From: Symbiodinium sp. CCMP2592
Lineage: Eukaryota > Sar > Dinophyceae > Suessiales > Symbiodiniaceae
DNA: 64,000 nt
Assembly: GCA_905221615.1 (NCBI GenBank)
Contig: CAJNDT010003424.1
Coordinates: 391,001-455,000, forward strand
Direction: 5' to 3'
Under the pieces are notes generated by a model, which saw only the letters and a program-made list of their open reading frames with translations, searched no databases and was not told the DNA's origin. The stretch's first letter is position 1; each line of letters begins with the position of its first letter. The position numbers were made by a program, and so were the translations under genes. Below are positions 37,213-60,092 of the stretch, one piece after another.

Positions 37213-37644
37213 TGCGTGGGGGATTGATCTCGACTTGGTTGCTGCTCTCCCCACCAGAGCTGTAATGAATGTAGGTGTGGCTGGCTAGCACTCTCCACAG
37301 ACTGGACCCTGTCTCTCCCTCTTACTTCCACACGTGCGATCCTATGCAGGCAGAACCGGCGGCCGTTCCTTTTGCACTCACTGCCGGCGGCGGTTCGTCT
37401 GTGCAACGGGATAGCTCTGATTGCTCAGGATAGAAGACACATATAGCACTTAGCTATGGGCATTGACTTGAGCCAAACGTTGCGTTGGCGGTCACATAGA
37501 AAGGTAAAGATGAGGGATGCGTAGCATGCCCCCTAGAGTCGAGGGACGCGTAGCGTGCCCCCTTCTCTTGCACTTTACACGGTCTTGCTCACAGCTCTTA
37601 TAGTGACACCTTAGAACTTGACAAGGCATCGCAGTCCGTTCGCA
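37213..37644 (-). repeat. 3' LTR of copia copy 1
   Basis: 432 bp, begins TGCGTGG and ends CCGTTCGCA on the plus strand. It is identical to 56471-56902 except for five substitutions. It contains TTTGGCTCAAG (sense; 37467-37477), the last 11 nt of the DinoSL. Confidence 0.92.
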
Positions 37645-37908: not shown

Positions 37909-40900
37909 TCATCTCCATCTTCGCGTGGTCGCAGGATCGCGGTCCCAGGGCCGGAGGTTTTCCTCTGGATACTGTTCCCGATGCTTTCCCTTGTCCTTGC
38001 CTTTGTTTCGGCCTTTGCCGGCGGTGTAGTCGTAGTAGGAGTTGGAGTTCCAGCCTCCATGCTGCTCACCTCCGGTTCTCCCACGCCCTTTTGAAGGTCC
38101 CTTGGCCGAAGAAGCGCTTTCACGTTCCTCCGTAGTGACAGGCGTGTCCAGGATGGAAGTACCACCTGGAGGGAGATAGTCAGCGGCCGAAATGTGGTGT
38201 AGGGCTTCAGTACGCTTGGTCGTCGGGTTTTGCTGTCTCTCAGCCTTGGATCTGTTCAATCTGTCCATGAAATGCGCAGGCATTTGCACACTGTGGTCCA
38301 CCAGCAAGCCGATGGTCTGGACTGACTGATCAGAATGAGTCAGCAGAATACCGACGGGGTCGATGTACAAGAAGTCCACTGGTCCAGTTGGCGTTGGTCG
38401 TAGCACTGAGAATTGTTGGTGTCCCGTCACCATTGGAATCACCTCGCACAGGACGTTCAGGCAACAAAAGTGCATAGCCTTCACATCTTCATCCCTTTCG
38501 CTCTTCAAGTAAGTAGTAGGGTTGAAGTTGTCCCTGCCAATTCCCATCATGTTGGCTCCCCGTGTAAGTAAAGAAAGCATCTGGTTCGTCCGGAAGCGCT
38601 TCAAGGTGTAAGTCCCGTTGGGATCATACTGTTTGAGGTTCTCAGGTTCCTTGGCAAAGCGAATGATCTCCTCATCAGTCACATCCTTGCTCACACCCGT
38701 TTCCCTATCCACTGCCGCCAAAGATCCCCACTTTCCAAGCACATCATAGCGTTGGCCAAGTGCGAAACTTTCCCTCATCTGAAACAACGGCATAGTCGCC
38801 CACTTTGCGAATCCTGACCAAGCCTTGTAGATGGATCTGCATACCACGTATGCCATGTACGAAAGAGCGGTCATGTTCGCGTCAATGCAATGGGCATTTC
38901 GCTTTCCAGAATAGTAGGATGGCTGCATGGCGGTACGTGCAAGTTGTAGCTCAGGATCGATGTTCAAAGACTGGCCGGTAACGAAGACGGGACGACGTTC
39001 CTGTGCAATTGCTTCTGGTACTGCGTCATCAAAGTCCTCTCCTGGCTCTATGTCCATTTCTTCATCAGGTTCCTGTTCTGGATCGTCCTCCGCGATGACA
39101 GATGGTTCTGGGATTTCTTCAGGTTCCGCAACGGTCTCTACCTCCATGGCTTCCTGCTCCTCTTCGGGCGCCTCAGGCACTGCGGCTGCTGCGGCTTCCA
39201 TTGTCTGAGCAATGAAGTCACTGGGGATCTCCGTAGGAGTCTCCCGTTGTGGAGAACCTTGGTAATATCCGCTCGAAATGAACTGTGACCAGCAAGACGT
39301 GCATCGGGAGAAACATGCTGGAACGATGTTGTAGCATGCCGGGCATACCCTCATTCTCCGTCCATCCTCGTCTCTGCGTAGGTCTTCGGGTCGCCAATTC
39401 TTGATGACAAACTTGATTCCTTTGTCCATGTAGTGATGCCGAACCGTGTTCTCCCTGTGGGACTCCAGGACAGTCGTGAGGTCTCGAATGATCTGCTCCT
39501 TGCTTGTGTCGTGGGGTCCAGGAGGCATCTCGCAAAGCAATTCCATGATCTTGCTTGGCGTTCGGTATCTCTCGAACTCAGGAAGCAACGGTGATGCATT
39601 GTAGTCCAACACCAGCTCTTTCTCCAACCGTTCATCGTAGATCTTTTCCACCAGAGCGAAAGAGTGTGTATCTCGAGGATCCGGGACGCAAAACCATACC
39701 TCCTTGACGAAATGGAAAGGTATCGTTCGACCAACGATCATGATGCCGCTGTCTGTGATACGTCCATCCTCTCGTGCAAGGTCCTGCGATGGGACATGAA
39801 GGACCGCCAATGGCATGTGCTTGGCGTCTCGTCCATGTACTCGCATCTTGGTCGTTGCGTTCCGGTGATCGAACGGCGCAAACACCCCCCAATAGCTGTG
39901 GAGTCTGCCACCTTGGTTGCCTCGGAATTGGCGCCTATGGTCGAAGTCCCCGTCGGGGTCCTCCGAACCAGGCATGATGCCTTGCGTGACAATGGAATCC
40001 AAGTTGCGGCATGCCGTAGCGTGGAACGCACCTCCAAGACGTTGCAAGAGGGTCATAGATGGAGATATTGCGAACCTGTTCTTGTCCAACTGAAGCAAGT
40101 TGTTCTGGGGATCTGAGTGCGCAGAGTGACCACTCGTAGCCCGAACTGCCCATGGCTTCACCCAGCCGTTGCATATGTTCAGGTACCTCTGGCCATGCCG
40201 GCAATGATCGTTGTTCTGGATCTCCGTGATCTGGTCCTGAACCGATACCAACCTGTTCGAACCTGCTGATCCAAGAACTTCCGTGCCGGGGTCCTTCACT
40301 CTCACACCCAGGAACTGCAACCGAATCTTGGCCTTGTTGCGTTTCGTGGCTGCAATCATGTTCCCTTGGAACAATAGCTGAAGTCTTTCATTGTACACTC
40401 TCTTCTTCTGTTGCTCATCGGTCCTTGAGACCGCTTCGGTGATGCGTCTGCTTTCATGGGTCCATAGTGGCTCATGCCTCACCAAGTCTTCGATCATCAC
40501 CCACCCTCCTTCATCACATTTGATGACACTGTTGAATGCCACCTGGCACCTGTTGTCAAGCCATTCCGAGCCTGGGCGCCTGGCGATTCTGTGGCGCAAG
40601 TCAGATTGGATGCATGATAGCGCCCAATCCGCGTTCAGTCTGCGCTGACGGGTGATGTTGCGAAGGACAACTTCGTTCACGAGGTCCCACCGATTGTTGA
40701 TGAAGCTTGCACCCTTGGTTGGGATCAGGTCGAGAATCCCGCACCGGATTGGCCTTCCGCCGCCGATGGATTCATAGCCTGCATTGGTGTAGCTATGAGT
40801 GTTTTCATCGTAAGCAAAGCTAGGACGGTCTCCTCGTTGAGGTAGGCGTCGGTCGCGATGGTCCGAAAGCTGCTCAATGATGTCCACCACTCGCTGGCTA

Positions 40901-43900
40901 TTCTCTGGTCCCGATTCCTGCAGTGGTACGCCACAAGCATCATGTAGGCCCCGACGGTTCTCCACATCCGTGCAGAGATTGTGTTTGTTCTCATAACGGA
41001 TCAAGACCACATCACCCCGTACGGCTTCGCCTCCGCGTCGCGGTCGGGCTTTGGCCTTGGGTCGTCGGTCCGAGGATGCAACACTCACATGATCTGTGGT
41101 GTCAACGTCCATTGGCTCAGCCTCTTGTGGAGGTACTCGACGTGGATATCGAAGAAGGCTTTCCTTGATAATCTGGACGCCTCGAAGTACCAGATCCCGG
41201 GTTGCAGCATTTTCTGTGCAATTGGACAGAGTGTGTAGATCACTGCCACAAGCGACACAGAACGTGATGCGGTCGCTTCCGACTGACATTTCGCCCTGAG
41301 CGAGTACGCCCACATAGTCCTGAAGCTGCGCGACAAATCCTTCACGAATTGCATGCCTGGGATCAGGGCCTTCTGCACCTTGTTCTTCTTCGGGTTGCGC
41401 ATCCACATCTACATCCTGTGCAGGTATTGGTGGAGCAACTGAGAACCCTGGATCGTCCGTGACGTTGTCAGCGGCCTGTGTCTCGTCGGTTCTCGCAATC
41501 TCTACAGGGTAGATATCACCATCGACGATCACTGTGAAATCAATCACGAGGTCAGCGGACATGTTGTTGACGATCTCAGCGACTGCTTCATTCTTCTTGG
41601 GCGGTGTCCTTTTGCGCGGGGAGTCAACCGTGATCAGCTCGATAGCTTCGGCCGACGCGTAGCGGAAGAATGATCTTTCGATTCCCCTCGCGCACGCATT
41701 TGCTCCCTCAAGGCCACCCCAATTCGGAAAATGACTTGGATGTCTCATTGCAATTGTAAGAAGCCCGAGCGCCAGCTCCACTGTGTCACCCAGGAGCTCT
41801 TCCTTGGGCAAGACTGACCCTCTGTAGCATTCTTGGCGCTCTTCCGGAGTCAAAAGCATCCTCATGAAACCAGCATAAGCGCAGTTCCCGGCGTCGTAGT
41901 AGCAGATGTAGCATGTCTTGCCTTCGGAGTCGTACCCTCTGTCCCATGCCAACTGTTTGGCCTTTCCCCATGCCGCGTACTCGATGGCCTGACTGGCTGT
42001 GATTCGGAGACCACCGTAGTGAGAAACCGTCTTGCCGATGTCTTCATAGACCATCTCTGCACAAACTTTGAGGAACTCCTTGATGTCCACGCGAGGATCC
42101 ACGAATTGAAGCCTCAGGTCATAAAGGTGCTTTGCGCAAGCCAAGGTGTACTTCTGGGACGTGATCAAGTCATTGAAGGAGCCGATTTGATGCTGCATCT
42201 TCAAGGCTGAAGTATGCGCGCACCCAATGCAGTGTCCAGGATACCCGTTTCCGGTCGGCTTGAAGAAGGCTTGTGCGTAGCACTCAGCCAACTTCATTGC
42301 TTCACATCCAGGGCAATAGAACGTTCTCCCTTTGACATAACCAGTGTTCAGGGTCGCATAGGTGTCGATCCTGAACCAGTAGTGCCTGTTGTCGTAGTAG
42401 GCTTCGGGAACGGTCATGGCGATGTCAAAATCCTGCCAGGTGACTGTGGACGATTCAGCGACCGTGTCACCCTGGGCACCCGACCTGATCTGTTGCTGCT
42501 GTTCCCCCGTAAACCATGTCTGCGAAATCTTGGTGGACGTCTTGACTTCACTCTTGTCCTCCCAAATCTCGACAAGCGACGGGTGAGCGACTGAGTCGGT
42601 TCGGACAGTTTCGTCCCATGAGCGAACTTTCGATGCCTCAACAAAGCACGTGGATACCATCTTCTCGCAGAACAGCTGCTTCTCGTAGATAGCGAGGCCC
42701 AATTTGAACCTGACCCGATTGTCCGGTGGTGGCACCTTTTCGACTGACAGTGTATGCACGCCTGACGACGCATGTTTCGCCTGGCTATACATTCTTGACC
42801 AAAACGAAGATCCATGAATCACCACGCATGCTCGGGCCCGCAACTCCAGTTCAATATACATTCCCAGCGCGTGGAAGCCGTTGAACATAGAAGCTTTCTG
42901 TCGAAGGTAATTGCTGGCTGCTCCTACGAACCGTAAGTCATGATTGATGTTGACAATTGGAGGGCGCGTGGTACGCTTCCCTGCCGCAATGATAGGGTCA
43001 ACGTACGTGACCTTGAGCTGTCGCTGCAAGTCAGCACGAATTGCTGCTCCGTCTCCGACCTCACTCATCGGAAATGATATGTTCTCGATGAGGATCGCCT
43101 GGAGAGACAGATGGTAATGCAACGTGACGGTTGCAAGCTGCTCTTCAGTCAAGCCATCCAATGTCGCATTCACAGATTCCAACGATCCCTTTGTGACTTG
43201 GAAGTTGTAGTTGGCACCTGCGGTGATCGACGGGCTCACAATGTAGATCTCACTCCATCCATGCATGACGAGATTTTCTCTCACTGTATGCGTTGATCCT
43301 CTGGTCCTTGCGACCATGTCAAAGTCTTGGACGAGGATTGTGCATTGAGAGCGCATAGTCGCGGCATCAGGCTTGCCACCCATACCCAAACTATTGCGAA
43401 ATCCGTTCAGCGTGTTCATGGTGTTGATCCTTGCTTCTGCCGGAATTTCATCGTTGTCGACAAGATCGCTGTCTGCCTCGATCATCACTGCCGAGGTAAG
43501 CATTGGAGGAGAAGGAAGATGCACGCACGACACCAATGCCAATGCATGGTACAGCCGCGAATACATCCGTAACCACATCTTCGTGCTCAGCTTCACGTAG
43601 ACCTTCAGGTTGAGACCCTTGTCGTCACTTTGAGAGACGGAACGAATCCTTGCCAAGTAGGTCACCAGTCTTCTGACGTAATGCTGAATCGGTGTGGTCC
43701 CCACGTCGTGGTTGGCCACGAACTTTGGCGTCTCATCAATGGTAGGTGGGTACTCGTCTTGATCACGGGTCGTCGCCAGCAAGCTCGAGCGACAGCCCTT
43801 TTCATCGATGTTGACATAATGGTACCAACTTTCCTGAGCGCCAGCGGGGATTGGAGCTTCCTCCCATGTCGGTTGCGATGGTTCCTCTTCCGGTTGCGAA

Positions 43901-45399
43901 GTCGATGGTTGTGGAGGAGGTGCCGCGGAAGATGATGACGCCGATGCCGTTGCCTCGTCCGTCCTTGCCCTCTTTGGTCCGTGGCTAGGGGTGGCTCGAG
44001 GCTCAGCAGCGGATCCTTGCGATTGTCCCGGCGTTCTTCCATGCTCAGGGTGCACGATTCCTTCCGGTTCGAGGTTGCTTGCCGTAGGCATCGCAACTCT
44101 CCCCGTTGAGTATACCCAGCTAGGATGCCGTTGAAGATTGGGCGGAAATAGGCCATCATCTTGCATAAGCGGACTTGGTGCCCCCATCTGTTGGAATTCT
44201 GCTTCCCATATGCTCAACGTGGCGCGTTTGGTAGAGCAGTCGACCACATACCCAGATTCAACTCCGCACTGATTCCAGGTGTAGCTACGGAACGCATCCG
44301 GCAATTGGAAGCCGTTCCTGTCCTGATCTGCACATACAGCATCCACATGGTGCTTGAGGAAAGAATACGTGGTGTAGTCGGAATCAGGGAGCACATCGTT
44401 GGACCATCTGTAATGCGGGTGTCCAGTTTCTGGATCAACCCATGATACGTAGGAATGAAGCACGTGGAGACAGACACTGAACGCCTGGAGCGAGTTCATC
44501 GCAAAGGCGAGCGGATGTCCCATGCCTTGAGGCATTGTGCGCATCATCAAAGCCAGCTGGTGAACGTTGAGTGGCGTAGCGCCATCGTTGCTCGCTGCAC
44601 ATTCCTGGTTGTAGGTCCGTAGTCCATACCCAGTGTGTTTTGCGAACATGTACATCAGCTTGCACACCCTACATAACGTAGGCTCCGCCAACAGGTCTGA
44701 TTGGTCAGGTGCTCTACCCGACATAGGCAACTTGTGGTAGTAGTCCTGATTCACCGTATACCATTGTTGAATTCTCGTATCTGTCACAGTCTGGTAGGGC
44801 GTCTCCACGGAGTTGATGAGAACGGCGAGGTTGTAGTACCCGTCCGCACTGACGATGTTCCTTGTTGCAGTGTTCAAGTCGAACCGAACTTGTTTTCGTT
44901 CTTGTTCCAGTTCAACTACAGCCAATTTTGCATCATCGCGGATCACTTCCTCATCCACCATAAACCTGGTGATGGCATTGAACTTCCCCTCGTAGTCAGC
45001 AACAATGTGTTTGAGACCTCCACCAAACTTGATGACCATGGCGAGTATCTCCCCATAGGGTTTGTCCATGTACTCCTCAGGGGCAGCAAATAAGCAAGCT
45101 TTGAGGATTTCTCGGACTCGAATGGAAAGATCCCCTCCTGGCGACAGATTTGCACACGTGAACAGCAAGACCAACGGAGGTGCTTTGAACGCTGCCCATG
45201 TGCGAATGAGATCATTGTCGACCACTTTGTCTTTCGTAATCTTCGGCGGGAGCGAAACGCTCTGCGACGGATCCCCAGAATACATCTCCAGGAACTTGTG
45301 GAACTTCAGAAACGTTCGCATCATCCCACCAGACGGGAAAACTTCTTCGTGGTCCACTCCTTCGAAGGCCAGCTCGTAGGCATTGTAGCTTTCAGCCAT
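37909..45399 (-). CDS. ORF3 of the copia element: 2496-residue protein with a Tpt1/KptA-like domain
   Basis: Starts at an ATG (45399), separate from Pol. No recognisable domain in the first 900 residues except an Arg-rich Ser/Pro linker near 490-560. Around 1026-1060 CPGC...HCIGC could be a zinc ribbon. Near 1380 CVACGSDLHTLSNC has exact CX2CX4HX4C zinc-knuckle spacing. From about 1600 to 1880 the order of motifs resembles Tpt1/KptA RNA 2'-phosphotransferases: DLRHRIA, GGWVMIEDL, VRATSGHS (family: IRANQGHS), FHATACRNLDSIVTQGIMPG (family: HGT...W..I...G) and GGRLHSYWGVF. This family removes a 2'-phosphate from RNA using NAD. A CPAC...CTSC pair follows near 2025, then an acidic stretch and a Gly/Lys-rich tail. 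The frame is intact here. The catalytic call is inference from motif order. Confidence 0.75.
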   Translation of the reverse strand: MAESYNAYELAFEGVDHEEVFPSGGMMRTFLKFHKFLEMYSGDPSQSVSLPPKITKDKVVDNDLIRTWAAFKAPPLVLLFTCANLSPGGDLSIRVREILKACLFAAPEEYMDKPYGEILAMVIKFGGGLKHIVADYEGKFNAITRFMVDEEVIRDDAKLAVVELEQERKQVRFDLNTATRNIVSADGYYNLAVLINSVETPYQTVTDTRIQQWYTVNQDYYHKLPMSGRAPDQSDLLAEPTLCRVCKLMYMFAKHTGYGLRTYNQECAASNDGATPLNVHQLALMMRTMPQGMGHPLAFAMNSLQAFSVCLHVLHSYVSWVDPETGHPHYRWSNDVLPDSDYTTYSFLKHHVDAVCADQDRNGFQLPDAFRSYTWNQCGVESGYVVDCSTKRATLSIWEAEFQQMGAPSPLMQDDGLFPPNLQRHPSWVYSTGRVAMPTASNLEPEGIVHPEHGRTPGQSQGSAAEPRATPSHGPKRARTDEATASASSSSAAPPPQPSTSQPEEEPSQPTWEEAPIPAGAQESWYHYVNIDEKGCRSSLLATTRDQDEYPPTIDETPKFVANHDVGTTPIQHYVRRLVTYLARIRSVSQSDDKGLNLKVYVKLSTKMWLRMYSRLYHALALVSCVHLPSPPMLTSAVMIEADSDLVDNDEIPAEARINTMNTLNGFRNSLGMGGKPDAATMRSQCTILVQDFDMVARTRGSTHTVRENLVMHGWSEIYIVSPSITAGANYNFQVTKGSLESVNATLDGLTEEQLATVTLHYHLSLQAILIENISFPMSEVGDGAAIRADLQRQLKVTYVDPIIAAGKRTTRPPIVNINHDLRFVGAASNYLRQKASMFNGFHALGMYIELELRARACVVIHGSSFWSRMYSQAKHASSGVHTLSVEKVPPPDNRVRFKLGLAIYEKQLFCEKMVSTCFVEASKVRSWDETVRTDSVAHPSLVEIWEDKSEVKTSTKISQTWFTGEQQQQIRSGAQGDTVAESSTVTWQDFDIAMTVPEAYYDNRHYWFRIDTYATLNTGYVKGRTFYCPGCEAMKLAECYAQAFFKPTGNGYPGHCIGCAHTSALKMQHQIGSFNDLITSQKYTLACAKHLYDLRLQFVDPRVDIKEFLKVCAEMVYEDIGKTVSHYGGLRITASQAIEYAAWGKAKQLAWDRGYDSEGKTCYICYYDAGNCAYAGFMRMLLTPEERQECYRGSVLPKEELLGDTVELALGLLTIAMRHPSHFPNWGGLEGANACARGIERSFFRYASAEAIELITVDSPRKRTPPKKNEAVAEIVNNMSADLVIDFTVIVDGDIYPVEIARTDETQAADNVTDDPGFSVAPPIPAQDVDVDAQPEEEQGAEGPDPRHAIREGFVAQLQDYVGVLAQGEMSVGSDRITFCVACGSDLHTLSNCTENAATRDLVLRGVQIIKESLLRYPRRVPPQEAEPMDVDTTDHVSVASSDRRPKAKARPRRGGEAVRGDVVLIRYENKHNLCTDVENRRGLHDACGVPLQESGPENSQRVVDIIEQLSDHRDRRLPQRGDRPSFAYDENTHSYTNAGYESIGGGRPIRCGILDLIPTKGASFINNRWDLVNEVVLRNITRQRRLNADWALSCIQSDLRHRIARRPGSEWLDNRCQVAFNSVIKCDEGGWVMIEDLVRHEPLWTHESRRITEAVSRTDEQQKKRVYNERLQLLFQGNMIAATKRNKAKIRLQFLGVRVKDPGTEVLGSAGSNRLVSVQDQITEIQNNDHCRHGQRYLNICNGWVKPWAVRATSGHSAHSDPQNNLLQLDKNRFAISPSMTLLQRLGGAFHATACRNLDSIVTQGIMPGSEDPDGDFDHRRQFRGNQGGRLHSYWGVFAPFDHRNATTKMRVHGRDAKHMPLAVLHVPSQDLAREDGRITDSGIMIVGRTIPFHFVKEVWFCVPDPRDTHSFALVEKIYDERLEKELVLDYNASPLLPEFERYRTPSKIMELLCEMPPGPHDTSKEQIIRDLTTVLESHRENTVRHHYMDKGIKFVIKNWRPEDLRRDEDGRRMRVCPACYNIVPACFSRCTSCWSQFISSGYYQGSPQRETPTEIPSDFIAQTMEAAAAAVPEAPEEEQEAMEVETVAEPEEIPEPSVIAEDDPEQEPDEEMDIEPGEDFDDAVPEAIAQERRPVFVTGQSLNIDPELQLARTAMQPSYYSGKRNAHCIDANMTALSYMAYVVCRSIYKAWSGFAKWATMPLFQMRESFALGQRYDVLGKWGSLAAVDRETGVSKDVTDEEIIRFAKEPENLKQYDPNGTYTLKRFRTNQMLSLLTRGANMMGIGRDNFNPTTYLKSERDEDVKAMHFCCLNVLCEVIPMVTGHQQFSVLRPTPTGPVDFLYIDPVGILLTHSDQSVQTIGLLVDHSVQMPAHFMDRLNRSKAERQQNPTTKRTEALHHISAADYLPPGGTSILDTPVTTEERESASSAKGPSKGRGRTGGEQHGGWNSNSYYDYTAGKGRNKGKDKGKHREQYPEENLRPWDRDPATTRRWR

Positions 45400-45558
45400 G
45401 GCTCGGGTTTCGGTCCTTCCTCCGTAGGAGGGAAGTCCCTACACCCTACTCGACTTCACGGTTCCGGGTTCTCCGTAAGAGGCACCCTTCCCCGATCCGT
45501 CTGGTCAGACCTTAGTTGTTCCTTAGTTGGGGCTGTCTAATAGCCCCTTCATCAGCGT
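45400..45558 (-). promoter_or_regulatory. Structured spacer between Pol and ORF3
   Basis: 159 nt, nearly unchanged in copy 2. Sense strand: GGGGCT-ATTAGAC-AGCCCC can form a hairpin just after the Pol stop. TTCCCTCC-TAC-GGAGGAA, 20-30 nt before the ORF3 ATG, can form another. ACTAAGG is repeated twice. A role in reinitiation, internal entry or splicing is possible but unproven. Confidence 0.45.
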
Positions 45559-47062
45559 CTACACACTGATGTTCATGCAATGTGCCTCAGATTCATGTGC
45601 AACATGACTGACACTGACATGAGCTCGAACAAGGCTGCGAACATTCCTCGCAATTGACCGCCATGAGACATCAATGCGCTGCGACAAACTGCTCTTCGAA
45701 TCATGGTCCAAGCAATCATCCGGTCTCATCACCAAACGATCCGCTTCAGGCATGTTAGAGAACATGATCCTGCGTCCACCACCATCGCCATCAGCACCAA
45801 CATGATCATCAACCTTAACCTTCGTCACCTTGCCACTTGAAACAAGAGCATGCAACTCTGGCCAAGACCAACATGAACATGAAGAAGGCATGTCAAGCGA
45901 AAAATAGACGTCGGAAAATTCCGCACACTTCTTCAGCAGGCGTTTGAGAGATTTCAAGACACTTCTGAAAACCTTGTACTTCCCACCAGAACGTTTCTCA
46001 CCCCCCACGCAAGCCCCTTCACTACTTCCAGGACCAGCACCTGATCGCAAAAGCGATGCCACGAATAGCACAGGTGTGCGCAGGTCGTTCTGGCACGCAT
46101 CCTTCATCGTACCGATAAGGTTGTCCTCATCGGCTTTGGAGCTGATCAGCTCCTTGCAAGTTATGCGAGAGCAACCCTTAGTGGACTTAGGCACGGCGTA
46201 GCCATTACCCAAGCCACAGAGGTCAACAATCATGCGGTCTGGCTTTCGTCCACCAGCCTTCGACGGCATGGCTACCAATCTCCCATCGCCAGTTGCCTGA
46301 AATTTCAAGGCTTTAAGCAATCTTCTGGAGATTTGGCTAGTCAACTCGCATTTATCAGATCGATCCTTAGCGTCCGAATCAGTCATGTGCAAATGTTTGG
46401 ACGAGCACACATCAGACGACTTAGGATGCAACGCGACGTTTGCGGCAATGTACTCCCATTCATCCTTGCAGTAGCCGAGCTCAACGGCGGTTCCGGGAGA
46501 TACAGGATCCCGAAAGGTATAACGTTGCCCGTGAGTGCATCCTTGGATCTTGATGCTCTTCCACATGGCATCTTCCTGAAGTCCCTTGTACTGCTTGGTT
46601 TCCTGGACTGGTACTCGAGGAGGCACTTCGATGATGATTTGGAACCCCCATGATGCCGCTCTGCGCGCAATTCTTTGGACGACCTCCCCCCATGGGTAGT
46701 CTGTCCGCAATTTGGCCCTTTCAGGGTTGTCAGCGATTTTCCGACTCAGCCACGAATTCTTGCCCAACACCCCTGCACCAATGAAGATTACGGAGTTAGG
46801 GTTGTCTTTCCTTGCTCCCACCACATCGAAGATGTAGGCGCACATGGCGTCGTCAACTTCTCGCCCCATACTCAGAACATTTACTTGCAGCCCAGGGTCG
46901 TAGTGAGAATCGGGAGCATGCTGGGCGATGCAATCCTTGCCTGGAGCATACTCATTCCACCAGTTCTCCTCATCGACTCCTATCAATGTCCATACCGTCA
47001 CTGCCTTTGGAGCATCTTTGATAGTGATACGGTACTTCCACCGGCTGTAAGGATTCTTGTAA
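45559..47062 (-). CDS. Pol C-terminal region downstream of RNase H (frame-shifted in copy 1)
   Basis: About 500 codons that in copy 2 are fused to Pol. Here one extra base near 47063 puts them in another frame. It begins YKNPYSRWKYRITIKDAPKA and contains SVIFIGAGVLGKNSWLSRKI, WGFQIIIEVPPRVP and a Cys/Trp patch (SLDMPSSCSCWSWPELHAL). No family can be named; the alternation of hydrophobic strands with short helices suggests a folded alpha/beta domain. The last residues differ from copy 2 because of a further one-base change near 45591 and a TAG. Confidence 0.7.
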
Positions 47063-50000
47063 GGCATGGACCAACCTTCCATCGTGGTCGAGGAATTGGA
47101 TCACCAGACCCTCCTTGGGCTTGTTTTCGGCGAAATTGACCACGTGAGGCACAATTGCTCCATCATATCCTTGATATTCCCTTTTCTGTTCCGCCGCATC
47201 ATGCCACACATCTTCGTACACCGACGACCATTGGTCATAACCAAATTGAGAGGCTTGACTTTTGGACTGGCCGTTGAAACAAAATCCCTGGTGCAATGTA
47301 AAGCCCTGGTACCCCCCATGGATGGCACGCGCCAGTGTGACAACCACCGCTCGCCATTTGGCGGGCAGGGCGCGCACATAAGACTGGCCTAGAGGCGGTT
47401 CAGGAGGAGGCAAAAACGGCGGCGCAAGGACGTCCGCAATGGCGGCGGGGCGCAAATGCCCCCGTACCGGATGGTACTGAAACACAGCACGCTCCACATA
47501 GCGGTCGAACTTGCCCGGTTGATCAAGGATAGCAGCACGGTCCTCCATCTGGTGCCACTGCCCTTCACGAAGAATCCAAGTCGACCGAAGGTAACGACCA
47601 GGCGGCAACGCGGAAGGCGGCCCCCGCAACATGCGCGGGAACTTGACAACCAGGATGGGGTCCACACTGTCATGTTCTTGCAAGCCTTCCTTACTCGACA
47701 ATCCAGCGCGATACAACACCTGAGGGAGGATCGGCGTCTGCGTGTAAGGAAAACAAGGCACCTCGCTCTTGAACGAGTAGTGCTGCTGACCCTTCTCATC
47801 CGTGCTTTGGGTATGAGTAGGCCGCATCAGATCCATAATCTCTTGGGAGCCGATGAGATCCGGCGGAAAGATGTTGATGAGCTGACACGCATGTGTCCAG
47901 GACACGGAATCCTTGAACGACTTGGTGTGTATGTCCGCTGACATCTTGGCAGTGACCTCATAGGCAAGAGAAACGTAACCCTCCTGAAAGATAGAATGCA
48001 TCCATCCAATGCAGATACCGTGGGTACGTTCCAAGTGACGCATAGTCGGATTCTTGCCCGTGCGAATCACCCCGATCATGGTCTGGTTGTCGTCGTAGAA
48101 GACGAAGTTGGGGTCTTGCCCCCCAAGCTGCTGCCACAACGTGATAGCAGGCAATCCAAGACGTGACATGGCAAAGTCGGCCGCGACAATCTCGGCCTCA
48201 GGTGTGGAATGACTCAAGCATCCCTGCCTTTTGCTAAGTCCCGCCAAGGGAAATCGTGTGTGAGAACCTTGAATGTGCAAGTGAGCACCGGAGGTAGATT
48301 TCAAACTTTCTCCACAACCTGCATAGTCCGCATCTGCAAACAGCCCGATGGACGAGTCCTCCAAGGAGTTCCCGACCCATCCAATCATCATGTGATGTTT
48401 GGACTGGTGCACATAGGCCATGAGATGATGAAGAAGAGCATCCTCCTTCTTGGTCCATTTCGTGATCTTGCGTGCGAGATTGTTGATACTGCGCAGAAGA
48501 TCAAAGCGGCAAATGCGCGCGGCATAAAGCAATTTCATGAGAATGCTGGCTGCCTGCGGAGCAAGTGCACCGCGATTAGCCTCGTTGATTTCCTCTTCCT
48601 CGGGCGCCTTGGGAATAGGTGGAGGCGGAACGAGCCGACCATCCTTATCAACAGGCATGGTGTGTCCACACCACGTGCATCGATGGCTTTTACCTGACTG
48701 TGCCGGAGCGCGAGCTGGGTGATTCTTAGTCTCCTCAGCCGGACTCGGCGATGGTACCGTCTTGAATTTTGTCGGATCGAACCCAGTCACGTCGCAGTAC
48801 TTCTTGACTGTCATGTCCAGGTACGTCTCCATGTCGTAGGTAACGGTCTGCACCTTCGTTTTGTCATGCAACGTTGCCTCGCCCTTGGAGATGCGACAAC
48901 CCAGATACAAGCCCAGCGGCGTTTCTTCTTCCAATCGAAGTTCCTGGCGCAGCATGTCCCAACCCTTGGGTAGATTCTCTTTGGGTCCTGCCATCTTGAG
49001 ATCATCCACGTAGATGACAAGTAAGAGCTTCATTTGCGGGTGGAAATACAATGATGGCCATTCATCGCCAATCGGCTTGAATCCTACTTTCTGTACCGCG
49101 GTGTGGCAATGTTGTTCCCACATGGTTCCTGCGTCAGGATGTCCATATAGAGCTTTGATCAGGCGGCATACCGGCCTACGGAATTTGTGCCGTTTCGCAG
49201 ATGGATGCCAGGCTTCATCAGGCAGTTCAACCCAACATGGAGTGCCCGATAGTCTCGCCTGAATGTATGCTTGGATAGCATCCGCCATCTGGACATCGTT
49301 GCCAGGAAGGCATCCGTAGTAATCTGCCCACCGTGAGGCGTCAAACGTAGCCGGGGAATTCCCCAAATCCTGAAACAATGCGGCTTCCATATTCTGGTCT
49401 TTGACCTGATCACCGAGTAGTACACCTCGCCCTTTGAACTTCCTGGCAGGATCGTCCTCTTTGAGCTGATAGTTCTTCTCGTATATCAGTCCATGTACTC
49501 GCGCCATGTGTACTTTCTCACCTTTCTTCTTTGCCTCAGCGACGACGTCGTCATATTCACGCGTAGTTGAGAAGTCAAACACCTCTTGGTCCCACAATCC
49601 CTTCCATTCTTTCATGAAAGCTTCCATGGCCTTGGGATTGTTGATCATCTCCTTGCGTGTGACGGGTCGAGTGACCATGGCATTGAAGCACGATCCTCCT
49701 GCATGATTCTTTTCCCGATGTACGTTTCTGTGAGAAGTCGTACACGGCATAGAAGGAATCCAGTTATCATCCATGACCATATGCGCCGGAACAGCCGGCA
49801 CGACATCTGCCAAGAATTGTTCCTGTGTGTATTGATCCACATAGGATTGTGCCCATGACCAACCATCGTCGTCATCAACGGACACGTTGAGTTGCAGATC
49901 AATTTCTTCACATGGGACAATCTTGGGAAAGATCATGTTGTCCAAAATCTTGGTGACTATCTTCTTTCCTATCACAGCCTTCTTCCGGTCTTTCTTGGCA

Positions 50001-53000
50001 ACTCGAGCTTTGTCTCGCTTTTCTTTCTTGTATGCTGCCTTCTTCTCCGTTTCGCTCATCTTCTTCCATGCTTCCGGAGAATAAGAATGGATAGGTCGCC
50101 GTGTAGGAAGAGTTCGTCGACCGTCACTTCGGATCTTATACGGAACTCCCCTTTTGTCGATCTTGCAGGCTTCACCGTCATCGGTGAGATATACAATGCC
50201 GTCCCCTTTCTTCCCCGTACTCCAATGTTCAATCTCCTCGGGAGCCAACTTCTTTTCTTTCAAGATCTTGATAATCTCTCCAGGTTCTTCGATGTCTCCT
50301 TCGGGGATGAGTCTACCGGTTGGACCGACTTCGCGGGGCGATCGTCGATCTTTCCCAGTGACCTTTGGTTCAGAAGGAGGCGGTGCTGCACGTAGACCCA
50401 GCTCTTCGTCTAGTTCTTCGAGTCTTTTGTCTCCTATGGCATCAATAGCTTCATGTTCTGCTGACTTGAAGACTTCGCCGGGCGGCTCCGTCTCTATGTC
50501 AGATGGATCTATGTCCTGTAGGTCAGGATCTTCTCCGGGATCCGGTGGAGGAAGAAGTCCATTTGGATCATCGTCATCCCCGTCGCCACCATTTCCTCCG
50601 GGCGGACCGTCATCACCGTCATCGACGTCTTTTATCTCCTTGCCAGCGAGGTCAACGTTGTCCCTGAGTCCCTCAATGGTTGAATTCATCCTTTCGTACT
50701 CGGCTTTCAGGGGAAACGTTATCTCCTCTGGGAAGTAGATAACTTCTGTCTCGTACGGTCTCATCAACTTCCTGGGAACAGATGCGTCCATCGACAAGTT
50801 CGCGTTGGCAAATTCCTTCATATCCCAAACGCGATACTTCTTGGACCATCCTTGACCAGCAGTGATGATGTATCCGGCAAAAATGCCTGGAATCCCCTTT
50901 GGATCGAATTTGTTGCCATATGTCTTCGGCCTTGTGTCCGTCGGCTTGAAGAAGACTTTGGCCCCAAAGGGTATGGCTTTTCCCTCGAAGTCCTTTCCAG
51001 TCATTCGCTTCCATGCTGAATCACCATCGCCCTCCACGTCTTCAACGTTGAGGTTCTGCATCACGCAATTAAGCGCAAAGGACCAGTATTGAGCGGGCAA
51101 TCCGGCGTGTAGCATGGATGCTGCGACTGTGTTGATCACTTCTTGATTTGATCGTTCAGCGAGTGAATTGTTACTGGGTTTCCCTGGAAGGGAATGATCT
51201 ATCACGATCTTCAACTGCGCCATAGCTGAATCGAACTCTGGTGCTTCATCACTATACGCCATATGAATCTTGCGTCTTCCCATAAGGCGTCTGATGGCCA
51301 TGACGACTTCGTCAGTGCTCCTTGAAGCCGTGGGAATCGCTGCGATCATTTTGGTGGCGATGTCTCTGATGACTAGAACTTCACGTGCTCCGTCATCGAG
51401 TCCGATGCCTGCTTCGGCGGCCTTGCGCATATCAAGGAAGTCGAACGTCACAAGATCTCCCCAGTGTTTGATCACACGTTGAAACGCACCTCGTTGTGTT
51501 CGCAAGTGCTTCATCTTCGCGCGTATGCACGATTCGCAATATGGATTGCGGTAGCGATGAGTACACAGATGTGCCAACGTCTTAGCTTCGGCTTTCAGTG
51601 TTCCGACTCTGGCCTTACGGCTCGGCGCACCGTCGCCTTCTACATCAATGATCACCTCATCGTCACCATCCAATGGAATTTCACCCACTCCTTTTCCTTC
51701 GTCGTCGTCCGGAGGTCGTCCGGCCTCGGACTCTGGTACTTCTTCTATAGGAGGTTCTTGGGGTTCAGGATCAGGAGGTCGTTCATGATCGTCACCTTCT
51801 TCTTCTGCTTCAATCTCGCTCGGTGCAGCTTCAGCGGCAGCTGCGACGCTGACGTCAACATTGCCCGCTGTTAGCGCACCCTTGAAGATTTCGGTGATCG
51901 CTTTGGCCTCCGGATCATCATGAACCAATGACTTGGAACTCCCGGCACGAACGTACGGGATGTCACCGTTCACGAACAGAGATATTCTCTTGCCCTGCGG
52001 GTTGATCATGAATGGTTCCCTTCCGGGTGGCCACACAAACCCGTAGTTGAAGTTCATACATCTCTTGCCTATGGAAAGCACCGACGGTGTGTCATCCAAC
52101 ACATAAGCGTTGATCGGTTCCTCGAACGACTCAGTCTGGAAATTCGACACGAGATCGGTATCGGTGATTCCATTGGCTGTCTGAAATGATATGGGCTCTG
52201 GAGTCACGAGTGTTTCGAGACTGTGCTTCTCGATCTTCTTCTGAGATATGAGGTCATGACCACACCCAGTGTCCATGAGAAACTTGATCTTCTTCTTGAG
52301 GATGACTGGTTGAACCATGCATTTGAATACGCCTTGATTGATGATCCGTTTGCTGTGTGCAGCATCGAGTTCGCGCTCAACGATGGAATCCTCACCGTCG
52401 TAGAAAGAAACTTCTTCCACTCGAGACGTTCCTGGGATTCGTACGAATGAAACTCGATCTCCGCATTGATCATCATCGTCGTCAACCATGTCTCTCATGA
52501 TCTGTGCCCTCAATCTCGCTTTGTGCTTGGCGAATTCCAAGCTCACGGCGCGATCCTCATCATTGATAAACGCTTCCATGTCGACGTACTTCACCTTCCG
52601 CTCTTTGTCTTTCTTCGATCTTCTAGGACACGAAGAAATGAACTTCACGTCGTTGGCAAATGTCACATTGCGCTTTATCACTTTTCGGGTCGACGTAGTC
52701 GTTCCCGAGGATTCGTCATCTGTTGAACAATCCGAATCAGCGTCGCTGTCAACGGATGGACAATCTGACTCCTCCTCATCTTGTCTTGAAGATCGCTTCC
52801 ATATAGCCGGAGCTGATGGATTCCACCTTCGACACAATCTGATGGCGGGTGCCGCAGGGAGTGCCTTGGCCTTGGCATTCGGCTTCGCTGGAGCTGCCTT
52901 CGCTTCGGATTTAGCTTTAGCTTTTGCCTTTGGTTCCGGAGCTGGGGTAGCTGCTGCCTCATGCTTGAAAGGACAATTCTCTCTTGAGCACGAGCCTGTG

Positions 53001-55999
53001 TTCTTGAACGAGTAGCATATCCTGTTTCCTCCTCCTCCAGATGGACTTGGAGTTCTCGTCCTCGGCGTGAAGGGTCGCTCTGGAGTCTTCTTCGAGTGAC
53101 TGAATGGACACTTATCGCCATTTCGACACCCTGCATCTGTGAAATGGAACTTGCAGCGGATTTGCTTCTTGCTTTTGTCACCTCTGTTGTCCGCTGACTC
53201 ACTCCTCGTCTTCTTCTTGGGCTTTGGCTTGGTCTTCGCATGACTCTTCGCTTTGCTTTGAGGTAGTACAGGCGCTGCTTTATCCGGCTTGGTCGGCGAA
53301 ACCTTGACCTTTGCGGATGGAGCTGCGTTAGGCGTAGGTTTCTCGGGTACCTTGGCCGGTGCAGCAAGCAAATCCTTGCCCTCAAGCATCTGGCGCAAGC
53401 CAATTTGGGTCTGAGTGAGATTTGACTGTTCTCGTCTCCGCATGATAGTACGATCAATGATCTTCATCAGGTTGTCGTACGATCGGTCTTCATGATTGTA
53501 GGGCAAGTGTTCGTAATGCATGCCCAACTCCATCTTCATTGCGGGCGAGTCCTTGATCTTGCTGTACAAGCAATCACGGAGAGCTGTTTTGGATGGAATG
53601 TCCTCTGGTCTCATCCGTCCCAGAACTTCCAGCCACGTCTGCTTGAACGTATGAAGCTTGTTGTCGCCTTGGTACTGGAGCTTCACCAAATACTCAAGAG
53701 TGATGATCATGTCAAGACGATCATGCGTTCGAAAACTTTCATACATCATCGCAATGACTTGTCGTCCTTTGATGATCTTCACGTCAGGCCTACTGATGTA
53801 ATCGTTAGCCTTCCGGTTCACCTCAAGGTACAGGTCAGCTGATTTGTCACCACCGGCACGTAGCATTGCGACCATGGCGATCCCCAATTTGACGTCTATG
53901 CTCTTGAACTTCTTGTGTCCTGAATCATTCAATGCTTCGCCATCAGGGAATGGGTTGAACGCTGGTGCCAGCCATAACATCCAGTCCTCATGATGTGGGT
54001 CGGCTGATGCCCCTAAGACATTGGCCGTGCACACGGATCGCCAGTTGTTGAGATGAGTGAGAGTAGGCCATGGAGGAACGGTCACTTTGTCGGCTTCCCT
54101 CCTGGAAATTCTCACCTCTGTGACTTCAGGATCCGCGTCTCCATCAGGAGCACGCGCATGCGAGCCAGGATCCGATTCAGGTTTGCCTCCACCGCTTTTC
54201 TTCTTATCATCATCATCGTCAGGCGGGTCAGGAGGGTCATACCCCGTGCCGGTTCCTTCATCGTGCTCTCCATCTTCGTTCTCGTCGCCACCCTCGTCAC
54301 CGTCACCGTCTCCATTATCCTCCTGAATCGTTTCAGCGAATAACTTCCATTCATCACGATCAGCTCTGAGACGTTGCTCGGCTTTCTGGGCCTTGAGTAC
54401 TTCGCTTCGCAGATCGGCAATCTTCTCCTCGTACCGTTCTGCGACCTCTTTCTCGATCTGACGTCTTCTTGTTTCATGAATGGAATCGTCATAGGCAATA
54501 GGGGGACCGATGAGGTCGTTGCCCTTCGTAGATGCGGTAACACCGTCGATACCAACAGGTCTTGAGGAGCTGGCCGATGCTGTGGACTTCGATCCCAACA
54601 TCCCGCGATCCCCCAAGAGTTCGCGTAGCTGTCGATCACGCACGGCTGCCGCATCACTTTTCCCATGAAATCCGCTTGGTATGCCGAACAAGGTGGCTGC
54701 ACTAGGCGTGGAACGCGCAAGTGCTGGGCTGCTAATACCTGGCACGTAGTGCTCGGGCATTGCATCCGCCACGATTGGCATTGAACTGCGGCCAGTGAAG
54801 AAGTTTCCACCGGTGAATGGAATTCCATCCATAACAAGGTTCTTGTCCTTGTCCGATTCCGAGAATGCGAACTTCTCTTTGGCGACTGGACTAACTTGAC
54901 TTGGGGACCGTATTTCAGGGGATCGTACCTCATCTCCTACGGAAAATGCAGGCAGTACTTCCTTTCCTACGTGCTCCCAGCCAGACTCAGTAGTCCTCGA
55001 AGACATGGGCATGCTCGAAGGTCGTGTCGCTCCTCCGTGATTGGAGTTTCGCGCTGCCTCCAATTCGCTGCGTGTCCTCGCTTGAAGATCTTCTTGTGCT
55101 TTGAGCGTTTTCCTGAGTTCACTCAGCTCGTCGTGCAAAGTAGGCAATGATCGCCTTGCATGATCTTCATTCTGATGAAGTCGGTCCTCTGCTTCTTGCA
55201 TCCTCTTCACAGCCATTTTGCGGTACTCTTCCTCTTCACCAAGACGTTCGCGAAGCCGAAAACGTTCTTGATCAATGGCTGCGCTGTTCCCAGCTAACCC
55301 TTGGATCTCGTTCACAGCCCGCAACTCCTGGTTCTTGACCAAGTGGAATCGTTCCTGCATTGCTTGTAAGGCTTGTTCCGAACTCGCTGTATTTGACCGG
55401 AGGACCAAGTTCTCTCTGGCATGTTCATGAAGTTCATGAGTCAGACGCTCATACTCACGTGCCATAAGCTCACCATCGCCTTGCGCTCTTGCCTCCAACT
55501 GCACAAAGTTGGTGGCTGCCTCCGTGCGGAACACGTGTAGTTGTTGAGCTAACTCCTCGGCAACGGCATGTGCTTGACGTTGTTGAGCAGAGTTCTGTTC
55601 ATCCATGCGAAACAAAGCTGTTTCATAGTCTCGCTTCATCTCCTGATTGACATTGTTGATGTGCTTCATGGCTAAGCATGCATGGTCACGTTGTCGTTCC
55701 AATTCTTCAATGCGAATTCCAGATCCTTCATCTTCTTGTTGCATCTCCTTGATCTTGTCCATCAGGGTCTGGACGATTCCTTCGTATTCTTGCACCTGAC
55801 TGCGATAGTACATCTGCTGTGCAATGTTCGATGCTTCGAACTGTTGCGAAATCGTCAGTTCCTGGTAGGCATTCGGACCATCAGCTATGGCAGGCGTAGC
55901 TACGGACGACGCATCACCACGTGCAGGAATCGTATCCAGAGTCATGTCCAGATCGTCAGCATCGCGTGGTTGATTGGTAACCATCCGATTCCAAGTCAT
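46970..55999 (-). CDS. Gag-Pol polyprotein of the copia element, copy 1
   Basis: The frame is open from about 56310 to 46970; the first in-frame ATG is at 55999. Gag: coiled coil (residues about 30-330), a conserved helical region (54000-53450), then two CCCH fingers, CKFHFTDAGCRNGDKCPFSH at about 53100 and CYSFKNTGSCSRENCPFKH at about 52975. Protease: FLMDTGCG at about 52270. Integrase: HLCTHRYRNPYCESC (51520-51565), LVTFDFLD, SDEAPEF and NNSLAERSNQE, giving Asp, Asp, Glu. Reverse transcriptase (49500-48850): VIYVDDLKMAG at about 49010. RNase H: FADADYAG at about 48335, HSTPEAEIVAA, YDDNQT, SADIHTKSF. The order integrase before RT marks it as Ty1/copia. CCCH fingers instead of the usual CCHC knuckle are unusual. 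Confidence 0.9.
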   Translation of the reverse strand: MTWNRMVTNQPRDADDLDMTLDTIPARGDASSVATPAIADGPNAYQELTISQQFEASNIAQQMYYRSQVQEYEGIVQTLMDKIKEMQQEDEGSGIRIEELERQRDHACLAMKHINNVNQEMKRDYETALFRMDEQNSAQQRQAHAVAEELAQQLHVFRTEAATNFVQLEARAQGDGELMAREYERLTHELHEHARENLVLRSNTASSEQALQAMQERFHLVKNQELRAVNEIQGLAGNSAAIDQERFRLRERLGEEEEYRKMAVKRMQEAEDRLHQNEDHARRSLPTLHDELSELRKTLKAQEDLQARTRSELEAARNSNHGGATRPSSMPMSSRTTESGWEHVGKEVLPAFSVGDEVRSPEIRSPSQVSPVAKEKFAFSESDKDKNLVMDGIPFTGGNFFTGRSSMPIVADAMPEHYVPGISSPALARSTPSAATLFGIPSGFHGKSDAAAVRDRQLRELLGDRGMLGSKSTASASSSRPVGIDGVTASTKGNDLIGPPIAYDDSIHETRRRQIEKEVAERYEEKIADLRSEVLKAQKAEQRLRADRDEWKLFAETIQEDNGDGDGDEGGDENEDGEHDEGTGTGYDPPDPPDDDDDKKKSGGGKPESDPGSHARAPDGDADPEVTEVRISRREADKVTVPPWPTLTHLNNWRSVCTANVLGASADPHHEDWMLWLAPAFNPFPDGEALNDSGHKKFKSIDVKLGIAMVAMLRAGGDKSADLYLEVNRKANDYISRPDVKIIKGRQVIAMMYESFRTHDRLDMIITLEYLVKLQYQGDNKLHTFKQTWLEVLGRMRPEDIPSKTALRDCLYSKIKDSPAMKMELGMHYEHLPYNHEDRSYDNLMKIIDRTIMRRREQSNLTQTQIGLRQMLEGKDLLAAPAKVPEKPTPNAAPSAKVKVSPTKPDKAAPVLPQSKAKSHAKTKPKPKKKTRSESADNRGDKSKKQIRCKFHFTDAGCRNGDKCPFSHSKKTPERPFTPRTRTPSPSGGGGNRICYSFKNTGSCSRENCPFKHEAAATPAPEPKAKAKAKSEAKAAPAKPNAKAKALPAAPAIRLCRRWNPSAPAIWKRSSRQDEEESDCPSVDSDADSDCSTDDESSGTTTSTRKVIKRNVTFANDVKFISSCPRRSKKDKERKVKYVDMEAFINDEDRAVSLEFAKHKARLRAQIMRDMVDDDDDQCGDRVSFVRIPGTSRVEEVSFYDGEDSIVERELDAAHSKRIINQGVFKCMVQPVILKKKIKFLMDTGCGHDLISQKKIEKHSLETLVTPEPISFQTANGITDTDLVSNFQTESFEEPINAYVLDDTPSVLSIGKRCMNFNYGFVWPPGREPFMINPQGKRISLFVNGDIPYVRAGSSKSLVHDDPEAKAITEIFKGALTAGNVDVSVAAAAEAAPSEIEAEEEGDDHERPPDPEPQEPPIEEVPESEAGRPPDDDEGKGVGEIPLDGDDEVIIDVEGDGAPSRKARVGTLKAEAKTLAHLCTHRYRNPYCESCIRAKMKHLRTQRGAFQRVIKHWGDLVTFDFLDMRKAAEAGIGLDDGAREVLVIRDIATKMIAAIPTASRSTDEVVMAIRRLMGRRKIHMAYSDEAPEFDSAMAQLKIVIDHSLPGKPSNNSLAERSNQEVINTVAASMLHAGLPAQYWSFALNCVMQNLNVEDVEGDGDSAWKRMTGKDFEGKAIPFGAKVFFKPTDTRPKTYGNKFDPKGIPGIFAGYIITAGQGWSKKYRVWDMKEFANANLSMDASVPRKLMRPYETEVIYFPEEITFPLKAEYERMNSTIEGLRDNVDLAGKEIKDVDDGDDGPPGGNGGDGDDDDPNGLLPPPDPGEDPDLQDIDPSDIETEPPGEVFKSAEHEAIDAIGDKRLEELDEELGLRAAPPPSEPKVTGKDRRSPREVGPTGRLIPEGDIEEPGEIIKILKEKKLAPEEIEHWSTGKKGDGIVYLTDDGEACKIDKRGVPYKIRSDGRRTLPTRRPIHSYSPEAWKKMSETEKKAAYKKEKRDKARVAKKDRKKAVIGKKIVTKILDNMIFPKIVPCEEIDLQLNVSVDDDDGWSWAQSYVDQYTQEQFLADVVPAVPAHMVMDDNWIPSMPCTTSHRNVHREKNHAGGSCFNAMVTRPVTRKEMINNPKAMEAFMKEWKGLWDQEVFDFSTTREYDDVVAEAKKKGEKVHMARVHGLIYEKNYQLKEDDPARKFKGRGVLLGDQVKDQNMEAALFQDLGNSPATFDASRWADYYGCLPGNDVQMADAIQAYIQARLSGTPCWVELPDEAWHPSAKRHKFRRPVCRLIKALYGHPDAGTMWEQHCHTAVQKVGFKPIGDEWPSLYFHPQMKLLLVIYVDDLKMAGPKENLPKGWDMLRQELRLEEETPLGLYLGCRISKGEATLHDKTKVQTVTYDMETYLDMTVKKYCDVTGFDPTKFKTVPSPSPAEETKNHPARAPAQSGKSHRCTWCGHTMPVDKDGRLVPPPPIPKAPEEEEINEANRGALAPQAASILMKLLYAARICRFDLLRSINNLARKITKWTKKEDALLHHLMAYVHQSKHHMMIGWVGNSLEDSSIGLFADADYAGCGESLKSTSGAHLHIQGSHTRFPLAGLSKRQGCLSHSTPEAEIVAADFAMSRLGLPAITLWQQLGGQDPNFVFYDDNQTMIGVIRTGKNPTMRHLERTHGICIGWMHSIFQEGYVSLAYEVTAKMSADIHTKSFKDSVSWTHACQLINIFPPDLIGSQEIMDLMRPTHTQSTDEKGQQHYSFKSEVPCFPYTQTPILPQVLYRAGLSSKEGLQEHDSVDPILVVKFPRMLRGPPSALPPGRYLRSTWILREGQWHQMEDRAAILDQPGKFDRYVERAVFQYHPVRGHLRPAAIADVLAPPFLPPPEPPLGQSYVRALPAKWRAVVVTLARAIHGGYQGFTLHQGFCFNGQSKSQASQFGYDQWSSVYEDVWHDAAEQKREYQGYDGAIVPHVVNFAENKPKEGLVIQFLDHDGRLVHALQESLQPVEVPYHYQRCSKGSDGMDIDRSR

Positions 56000-56406
56000 G
56001 GACTTGTCACGCCCACGAGTAGCCGAAGTCCTCGATCGTGCTGAAGAGCTTCTCGAAGCTGATGGTCTTGACTTCTTTTCCAAGGTCTTGACTCCTTTGT
56101 CCTTGGCCCTGGACGTAGTCCGAGGTGCCTGAAAACCAGACGCTTCGGCCCGTCGTTCTGAAGCCTTGCCCGTCCTCGAACCTGTGGATGTCGGACGCGA
56201 AGGCGTAGATGCTCTTGGTAGACTCTTTGCTTTCCCCTTGGGAACTGCCTTTGCAATGGCAAGCGCAGAAGATTGACCTTTGTCATCTTCCGTGGAGCTA
56301 TCAACGATTGCACCACTGTGTCATCAGCTGTTGACTCACCAACGGCTGGCGCTGCCACATCGGCACCGAAAGTCATTGTCGTATCTTGGCTTGATCCTGA
56401 GTTCAT
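56000..56406 (-). CDS. Probable true N-terminus of Gag, in two frames
   Basis: An ATG at 56406 opens MNSGSSQDTTMTFGADVAAP in one frame. From about 56300 the Gag frame (one base off) reads STEDDKGQSSALAIAKAVPK and a basic Ser/Arg-rich stretch that joins the main Gag frame without stop. A single frameshift near 56300 would unite them. It may be a mutation, an assembly error or programmed. If not used, Gag starts at 55999. Confidence 0.5.
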
Positions 56407-56470: not shown

Positions 56471-56902
56471 TGCGTGGTGGATTGATCTCGACTTGGTTGC
56501 TGCTCTCCCCACCAGAGCTGTAATGAATGTAGGTGTGGCTGGCTAGCACTCTCCACAGACTGGACCCTGTCTCTCCCTCTTACTTCCACACGTGCAATCC
56601 TATGCAGGCAGAACCGGCGGCCGTTCCTTTTGCACTCACTGCCGGCGGCGGTTCGTCGGTGCAACGGGATAGCTCTGATTGCTCAGGATAGAAGACACAT
56701 ATAGCACTTAGCTATGGGCATTGACTTGAGCCAAACGTTGCGTTGGCGGTCACATAGAAAGGTAAAGACGAGGGATGCGTAGCATGCCCCCTAGAGTCGA
56801 GGGACGCGGAGCGTGCCCCCTTCTCTTGCACTTTACACGGTCTTGCTCACAGCTCTTATAGTGACACCTTAGAACTTGACAAGGCATCGCAGTCCGTTCG
56901 CA
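56471..56902 (-). repeat. 5' LTR of copia copy 1
   Basis: 432 bp, TG...CA. Sense features: a TATA-like CTATAAGAG (about 56855) and TTTGGCTCAAG (56725-56735), about 120 nt further downstream. Right-hand flank is TA microsatellite. Confidence 0.92.
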
Positions 56903-59980: not shown

Positions 59981-60092
59981 GGCTCGGGTTTCGGTCCTTC
60001 CTCCGTAGGAGGGAAGCCCCTACACCCTACTCGACTTCACGGTTCCGGGTTCTCCGTAAGAGGCACCCTTCCCCGATCCGTCTGGTCAGACC
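59981..60092 (-). promoter_or_regulatory. Copy 2 Pol/ORF3 spacer
   Basis: Same sequence as the copy 1 spacer with one or two changes. In copy 2 the Pol frame runs through the first hairpin (GGGGCT...AGCCCC) and stops just after it. Confidence 0.45.

Follow-up and report, generated by a model that had tools for sequence, protein, structure and literature searches.

Enzymes of the Tpt1/KptA family (PF01885; TRPT1 and the KptA proteins of E. coli and archaea) carry out a reaction in which an RNA 2'-phosphate attacks nicotinamide adenine dinucleotide (NAD+), after which adenosine diphosphate ribose (ADP-ribose) cyclic phosphate is released and the RNA is left with a 2'-OH. Fungi cannot do without Tpt1, which they need for tRNA splicing; what it does in organisms that have no fungal-type ligase is an open question (PMC6333775). 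KptA has been reported in phages, a mimivirus, sawfly nucleopolyhedroviruses and a few RNA virus polyproteins, and Beihai picorna-like virus, Botrylloides leachii nidovirus and Bodo saltans virus provide examples of a KptA domain in a selfish element, which in the RNA viruses lies within a polyprotein (PMC9503650). These carriers are RNA and DNA viruses and not long terminal repeat (LTR) retrotransposons, and the words retrotransposon and retroelement are absent from the main text of that paper. The present analysis concerns a Tpt1/KptA-like domain found in a copia-type LTR retrotransposon of the dinoflagellate Symbiodinium sp. CCMP2592, within a stretch of 64,000 nucleotides (positions 391,001 to 455,000 of contig CAJNDT010003424.1, assembly GCA_905221615.1) that is referred to as a whole as the window.

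Retroelements with an enzyme cargo are already known; a Tpt1-type cargo is new as far as a search of open-licence papers could show. In Symbiodinium, long interspersed nuclear elements (LINEs) and DIRS elements carry DNA methyltransferases and the Copia elements are without such a domain (PMC5890265). These are likewise dinoflagellate retroelements bearing a modifying enzyme whose key residues are conserved, but they belong to other element classes and the enzyme is a different one. The oversized LTR retrotransposons Ogre and Burro, the latter gypsy-like, are likewise far over 10 kb, and some LTR retrotransposons are known to have additional open reading frames (ORFs) after pol (PMC6431247); in the excerpts of that paper no mention of a Tpt1 domain was found. 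Among open-licence PMC papers, judged by titles and abstract openings, there was no report of KptA, Tpt1 or PF01885 in a retrotransposon or dinoflagellate element, in agreement with the initial annotation of the stretch, which knew of no LTR element with this cargo.

The Tpt1-like domain sits within an LTR-bounded copia element and is retained in diverged relatives. From its sequence and predicted model we consider it probable, if well short of certain, that ORF3 of this large element holds a genuine and probably catalytic member of the Tpt1/KptA fold, and we propose, with less assurance, that it may heal RNA in the element's particle. The fold, the active-site residues and their retention in relatives suggest that a retrotransposon may possess an RNA-repair step of its own. 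A selfish element that keeps domain and active site despite wide divergence is a setting in which the selected function may be found, and such a function would tie retrotransposition to NAD+ metabolism and RNA repair and place a new enzyme type beside the DNA methyltransferases in dinoflagellate retroelement cargo.

Identification of the Tpt1/KptA-like Domain

The domain occupies 39655..40647 (window positions; all features of the element lie on the minus strand), corresponding to residues 1585-1915 of ORF3 (37909..45399), an uninterrupted frame of 2496 amino acids, and is defined by PF01885, a predicted model and a fold match. The motifs quoted in the initial annotation all fall in this one frame: LRH at residues 1601-1603, CDEGGWV at 1628-1634, RATSGHS at 1753-1759, FHAT at 1792-1795 and GGRLH at 1830-1834. 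The PF01885 search that it proposed did return a match. With the entire ORF3, PF01885 is the sole Pfam family at E≤10 (E 1.8e-5) and scores 25.3 bits, just below the cut-off of 26; with the domain on its own the score rises to 31.4 bits (E 2.3e-7), aligned to model positions 21-122 of 177. After trimming to the domain, the window sequence and six relatives, two of these cut short, all match PF01885 at E≤0.1 (7/7), and in full-length scans two of five relatives match at E≤1 and three do not.

Alignments of domain relatives and the profiles made from them (A1, A2 and A3) were compared with nine KptA sequences, namely E. coli kptA and eight further sequences retrieved as its relatives by tblastn, three from prokaryote contigs and five from phages (four annotated so). 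The profile-profile probabilities are 93.7% (A1), 96.7% (A2) and 97.4% (A3), and against E. coli KptA alone they are 44% (A2) and 52% (A3). As a query against genome_contigs, E. coli KptA finds six loci.

The two-lobed Tpt1 plan read from the motifs in the initial annotation is also what structure prediction gives: a model from 41 sequences is predicted to have the Tpt1 fold, with a winged-helix and an NAD lobe, and is matched over both lobes. The structural alignments to Tpt1/KptA have about 14-20% identity, and the top fold matches include KptA structures with DNA, one of them with ADP-ribosylated DNA. The best viral fold match is the Bodo saltans virus protein (E 3.7e-4); that to the Botrylloides leachii nidovirus is weak (E 0.33). 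A chance match of motifs is ruled out by the PF01885 matches of the trimmed domains together with the fold match.

Active Site

In the Clostridium (Cth) enzyme the catalytic tetrad consists of Arg18, His19, Arg68 and Arg121; Lys66 lies two positions ahead of Arg68, and His101 and Thr103 grip the adenosine ribose of NAD (PMC6333775). All nine KptA sequences carry LRH, K-x-R, GHS, HGT and the later Arg unchanged, and two of them have Lys in place of the Arg preceding GHS. Because the K-x-R Arg is invariant and the pre-GHS Arg variable, the tetrad here is assigned, by motif and profile rather than by residue-level superposition, as R1602, H1603, R1693 and R1832, and the Arg of RATSGHS is ruled out as the third catalytic residue on the same comparison. 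The Arg-His-Arg-Arg set for which the initial annotation had offered candidates thus exists, with the amendment that its third Arg is R1693 of KIRLQF, a motif absent from the list then given.

The conservation of these residues was counted on an alignment in which the A1 profile matched 177 of 179 sequences, the window included, each count being taken over the rows that cover the position; the rows are related copies, found in part with the A1 profile, and so are not independent. At R1602-H1603 of LRH (40591..40596) the Arg is present in 60/64 and the His in 58/64 rows. In the K1691-I-R1693 motif (40321..40329) the third tetrad Arg, R1693 (40321-40323), is kept in 73/76 rows and K1691 in 67/75, and the fourth, R1832 of GGRLH (39904..39906), in 76/78. 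H1793-A-T1795 (40015..40023), equivalent to the His-Gly-Thr that contacts the NAD adenosine ribose, retains His in 77/84 and Thr in 85/89 rows. The tetrad and the NAD-site His and Thr are thereby among the best-kept residues; R1753 of RATSGHS (84/85) is conserved as well, outside the tetrad. All four tetrad residues are present in 16 of the 18 rows that span all four positions (window plus 17 relatives).

The domain shares with Tpt1/KptA the two lobes, LRH, K-x-R, R-x-x-x-GHS, H-x-T and the fourth Arg. It differs in being embedded in a 2,496-residue retroelement protein, in being longer, with one insert that separates KIRLQF from the RATSGHS segment and another stretch, ahead of GGRLH, that is poorly predicted, and in that the equivalent of the NAD-clamp Arg139 is not clearly retained.

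Relatives and Conservation

A search of 5.8 billion proteins returned six long proteins that match the domain region. The A1 profile gave 90 matches, 12 of which have a precomputed PF01885 label, and A3 gave 132 (the best 120 of 132 listed). The relative P0002 aligns in colinear order with residues 1-2495 of ORF3 and shares 75% identity with it. In P0005 and in P0006, the latter from Symbiodinium sp. KB8, copia pol, an ORF2-like and an ORF3-like region follow one another in one predicted protein, with pol 70% and 79% identical to that of the window, respectively; P0005 is without parts of ORF3, its domain reaching to about residue 1897, and P0006 ends inside the domain. The presence of the same domain in P0002, P0005 and P0006 rules out that it is confined to one copy. 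The tetrad is retained in relatives that are 36-56% identical over the domain. A further relative, P0089, is from Symbiodinium microadriaticum.

The domain is also present in a more distant group (P0070, P0073, P0074, P0076, P0079, P0081, P0085, P0088 and P0090), at 28-33% identity to the window (A2). Among the 34 sequences of the distant group with RPWC[IV]R, many of them fragments, VLRH, KSRF and GNRLA occur together in only 6. Downstream of the domain, ORF3 has a CxxC...CxxC motif (39292..39345) that also occurs in the distant-subfamily members P0070, P0105, P0120 and P0167. Scans of viral_contigs and genome_contigs, two collections that may omit records near the genome of the window, found no relatives of the domain.

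Between ORF3 and P0002 there are ~629 replacements, for which ~36 stops would be expected without selection (~4 in the domain), and none is seen; the comparison is suggestive only, because ORF3 was selected for being open and P0002 is itself a protein prediction. Neutral evolution of the region, which the initial annotation had raised as an objection, is contradicted by this stop-free comparison and by the conserved residues, at the protein level only.

Proposed Function

We infer that the ORF3 domain would transfer ADP-ribose from NAD+ to an RNA phosphate and then release ADP-ribose cyclic phosphate, with removal of the 2'-phosphate. With less assurance, its job may be to heal RNA inside the element's own particle. 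A genomic RNA of ~19 kb would be prone to nicks, and sealing by a fungal- or plant-type ligase leaves 2'-phosphates, so that repair by a host ligase could place them internally. A 2'-phosphate hinders reverse transcription, and a cut tRNA half serves as primer in some copia elements. Internal 2'-phosphates, or phosphates on the cleaved tRNA primer, might thus block reverse transcription until cleared by the domain, and the end of the cut tRNA half might also need healing. A wider proposal, that of a widespread giant dinoflagellate copia lineage with its own NAD+-dependent RNA-healing enzyme as a fixed component of replication, such that reverse transcription of the very long RNA or tRNA priming would depend on the removal of 2'-phosphates, we put forward only tentatively and regard as rather doubtful.

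Several results weigh against assignment of an active RNA-healing enzyme. Sequence-profile matches to KptA align chiefly the NAD lobe, phmmer with the single window region finds nothing at E≤10 among PDB sequences, and the profiles reach the Pyrococcus Tpt1 only weakly among sequences of solved structures (best E 0.005 and 0.014); a sequence search of solved structures alone is insufficient to settle the family. A model built on only 7 sequences is useless (predicted local distance difference test score 42). The tetrad is broken in P0008 and P0030 (2 of the 18 rows), the LRH Arg is missing from P0098, a distant relative, and Pfam finds no RNA ligase, 2H or macro domain in the three ORFs of the element. 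In a partial second copy of the element, ORF3 has a premature stop after residue 325 (59003-59005, minus strand). The chief point against an ordinary NAD site, as judged from the aligned sequences, is that the equivalent of Arg139-Arg140 (Cth), where family members have an Arg/His pair that clamps the NAD phosphates, looks variable, in a region where the alignment is uncertain; Runella Tpt1 with the matching alanine mutation lost all activity at 0.1 mM NAD (PMC6333775).

The same fold and tetrad could instead serve an ADP-ribosyltransferase that caps the 5'-phosphate ends of element RNA or cDNA against host nucleases or sensors and removes no 2'-phosphate. ADP-ribosylation of RNA in vitro has been reported for TRPT1 (PMC9458441), and the KptA-DNA complexes among the top fold matches, with the ADP-ribosylated one, are consistent with such an activity. 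Nevertheless, the sequence gives no preference for ends over internal 2'-phosphates and the tetrad that reads 2'- and 3'-phosphates is retained, and we regard end capping as unlikely. A slightly smaller chance is given to a role in counter-defence, as has been proposed for phage and viral KptA (PMC9503650), in which host ribonucleases directed against transposons would cleave tRNAs and other RNAs of host or element, leaving 2',3'-cyclic phosphates, and the domain would assist in their repair. Since Pfam finds neither a ligase nor a cyclic phosphodiesterase alongside the domain, the host would have to supply both. Moreover, we know of no such anti-transposon ribonuclease defence in this alga, which also counts against the proposal.

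If the Tpt1 fold did no more than bind RNA as part of a structural ORF3 protein, the apparent variability of the NAD-clamp Arg would be accounted for, and Pfam recognises nothing else in ORF3; the conservation of the tetrad and of the NAD-site His and Thr argues against this, and we find a non-catalytic module improbable. That a host Tpt1 gene was captured once and is now decaying as a passenger is already disfavoured and most improbable of all: the young LTRs, which leave the window copy little time for decay, and the stop in the second copy would fit, but the same domain occurs in the same order in relatives with pol only 70-79% identical, with the tetrad kept at 36-56% domain identity.

Element Architecture and Surroundings

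The LTR-retrotransposon setting given in the initial annotation stands on two LTRs and a reverse transcriptase match in ORF1. The 5' LTR (56471..56902) and 3' LTR (37213..37644) are direct repeats of 432 bp with TG...CA termini that differ at 5 positions (98.8% identity) and bound an element of ~19.7 kb. A (TA)n microsatellite adjoins the outer side of the 5' LTR; since (TA)n repeats flank the element on either side, a target-site duplication is not readable. ORF1 (46970..56083), a copia-type gag-pol, starts as listed with TTG and has its first ATG at codon 29; its CCCH fingers and RVT_2 are above Pfam cut-offs, RVT_2 at residues 2302-2400 with 33.4 bits (cut-off 31.6, E 4.7e-8). Ahead of it, an aspartyl protease (1263-1330), an integrase-like region (1523-1654; IS481 model, E 2e-4) and SH3 (1706-1756; E 0.015) fit the copia order, all three matches lying under the curated Pfam cut-offs. 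The CCCH-type zinc fingers are in the gag part, at residues about 973-998 and nearby, a position at which CCHC knuckles are usual in many LTR elements.

ORF2 (45559..47082, 507 amino acids) has no Pfam family at E≤0.1. ORF1 and ORF2 are separate frames in this copy, and ORF2 is fused in frame with the pol region in P0005, P0006 and the second copy, where the continuous frame occupies 60093-64000. The copies differ by one base in length near the ORF1/ORF2 boundary (46970-47082 in copy 1), which reflects either a frameshift or an assembly error. The second copy (57669..64000) is 98.9% identical to 43088-49416 over 6.3 kb and ends at an assembly gap (57569-57668), short of the Tpt1 region. Between the copies, the part of ORF1 that can be compared has 11 silent and 4 replacement changes (dN/dS 0.10), ORF2 has 10 and 8 (0.23), and the initial ~770 codons of ORF3, upstream of the Tpt1 region, have 15 and 18 (0.35); these values come from small, uncorrected codon-by-codon counts in which one replacement each in ORF2 and ORF3 involves a stop.

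The spacer between ORF2 and ORF3 (45400..45558) folds stably together with the adjoining ORF2 sequence: 45397-45600, comprising the ORF2 end and the spacer, is more stable than all 200 shuffles (z -3.5) and may act as a signal in the translation of ORF3. Rfam finds nothing at 45397-45600 and lends no support to the hammerhead-like appearance of the spacer; its single match at E≤5, over LTR and TA repeat, is far below its cut-off and was taken as chance. No tRNA genes were found within the 64-kb window. Outside the Tpt1 region, the best-conserved stretch of ORF3 is residues 1101-1250 (41650-42099), which has no Pfam match; taken in blocks of 50 residues, its identity across six relatives is 44-88%, apart from a single value of 14%. 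It is preceded by a CxxC...CxxC motif at residues 1029-1060 and is possibly another enzyme or binding domain. Elsewhere in the window a LINE-like element lies at 24071-28120 (minus strand), with a 1000-residue RVT_1 ORF that has a weak endonuclease match and a 319-residue ORF upstream.
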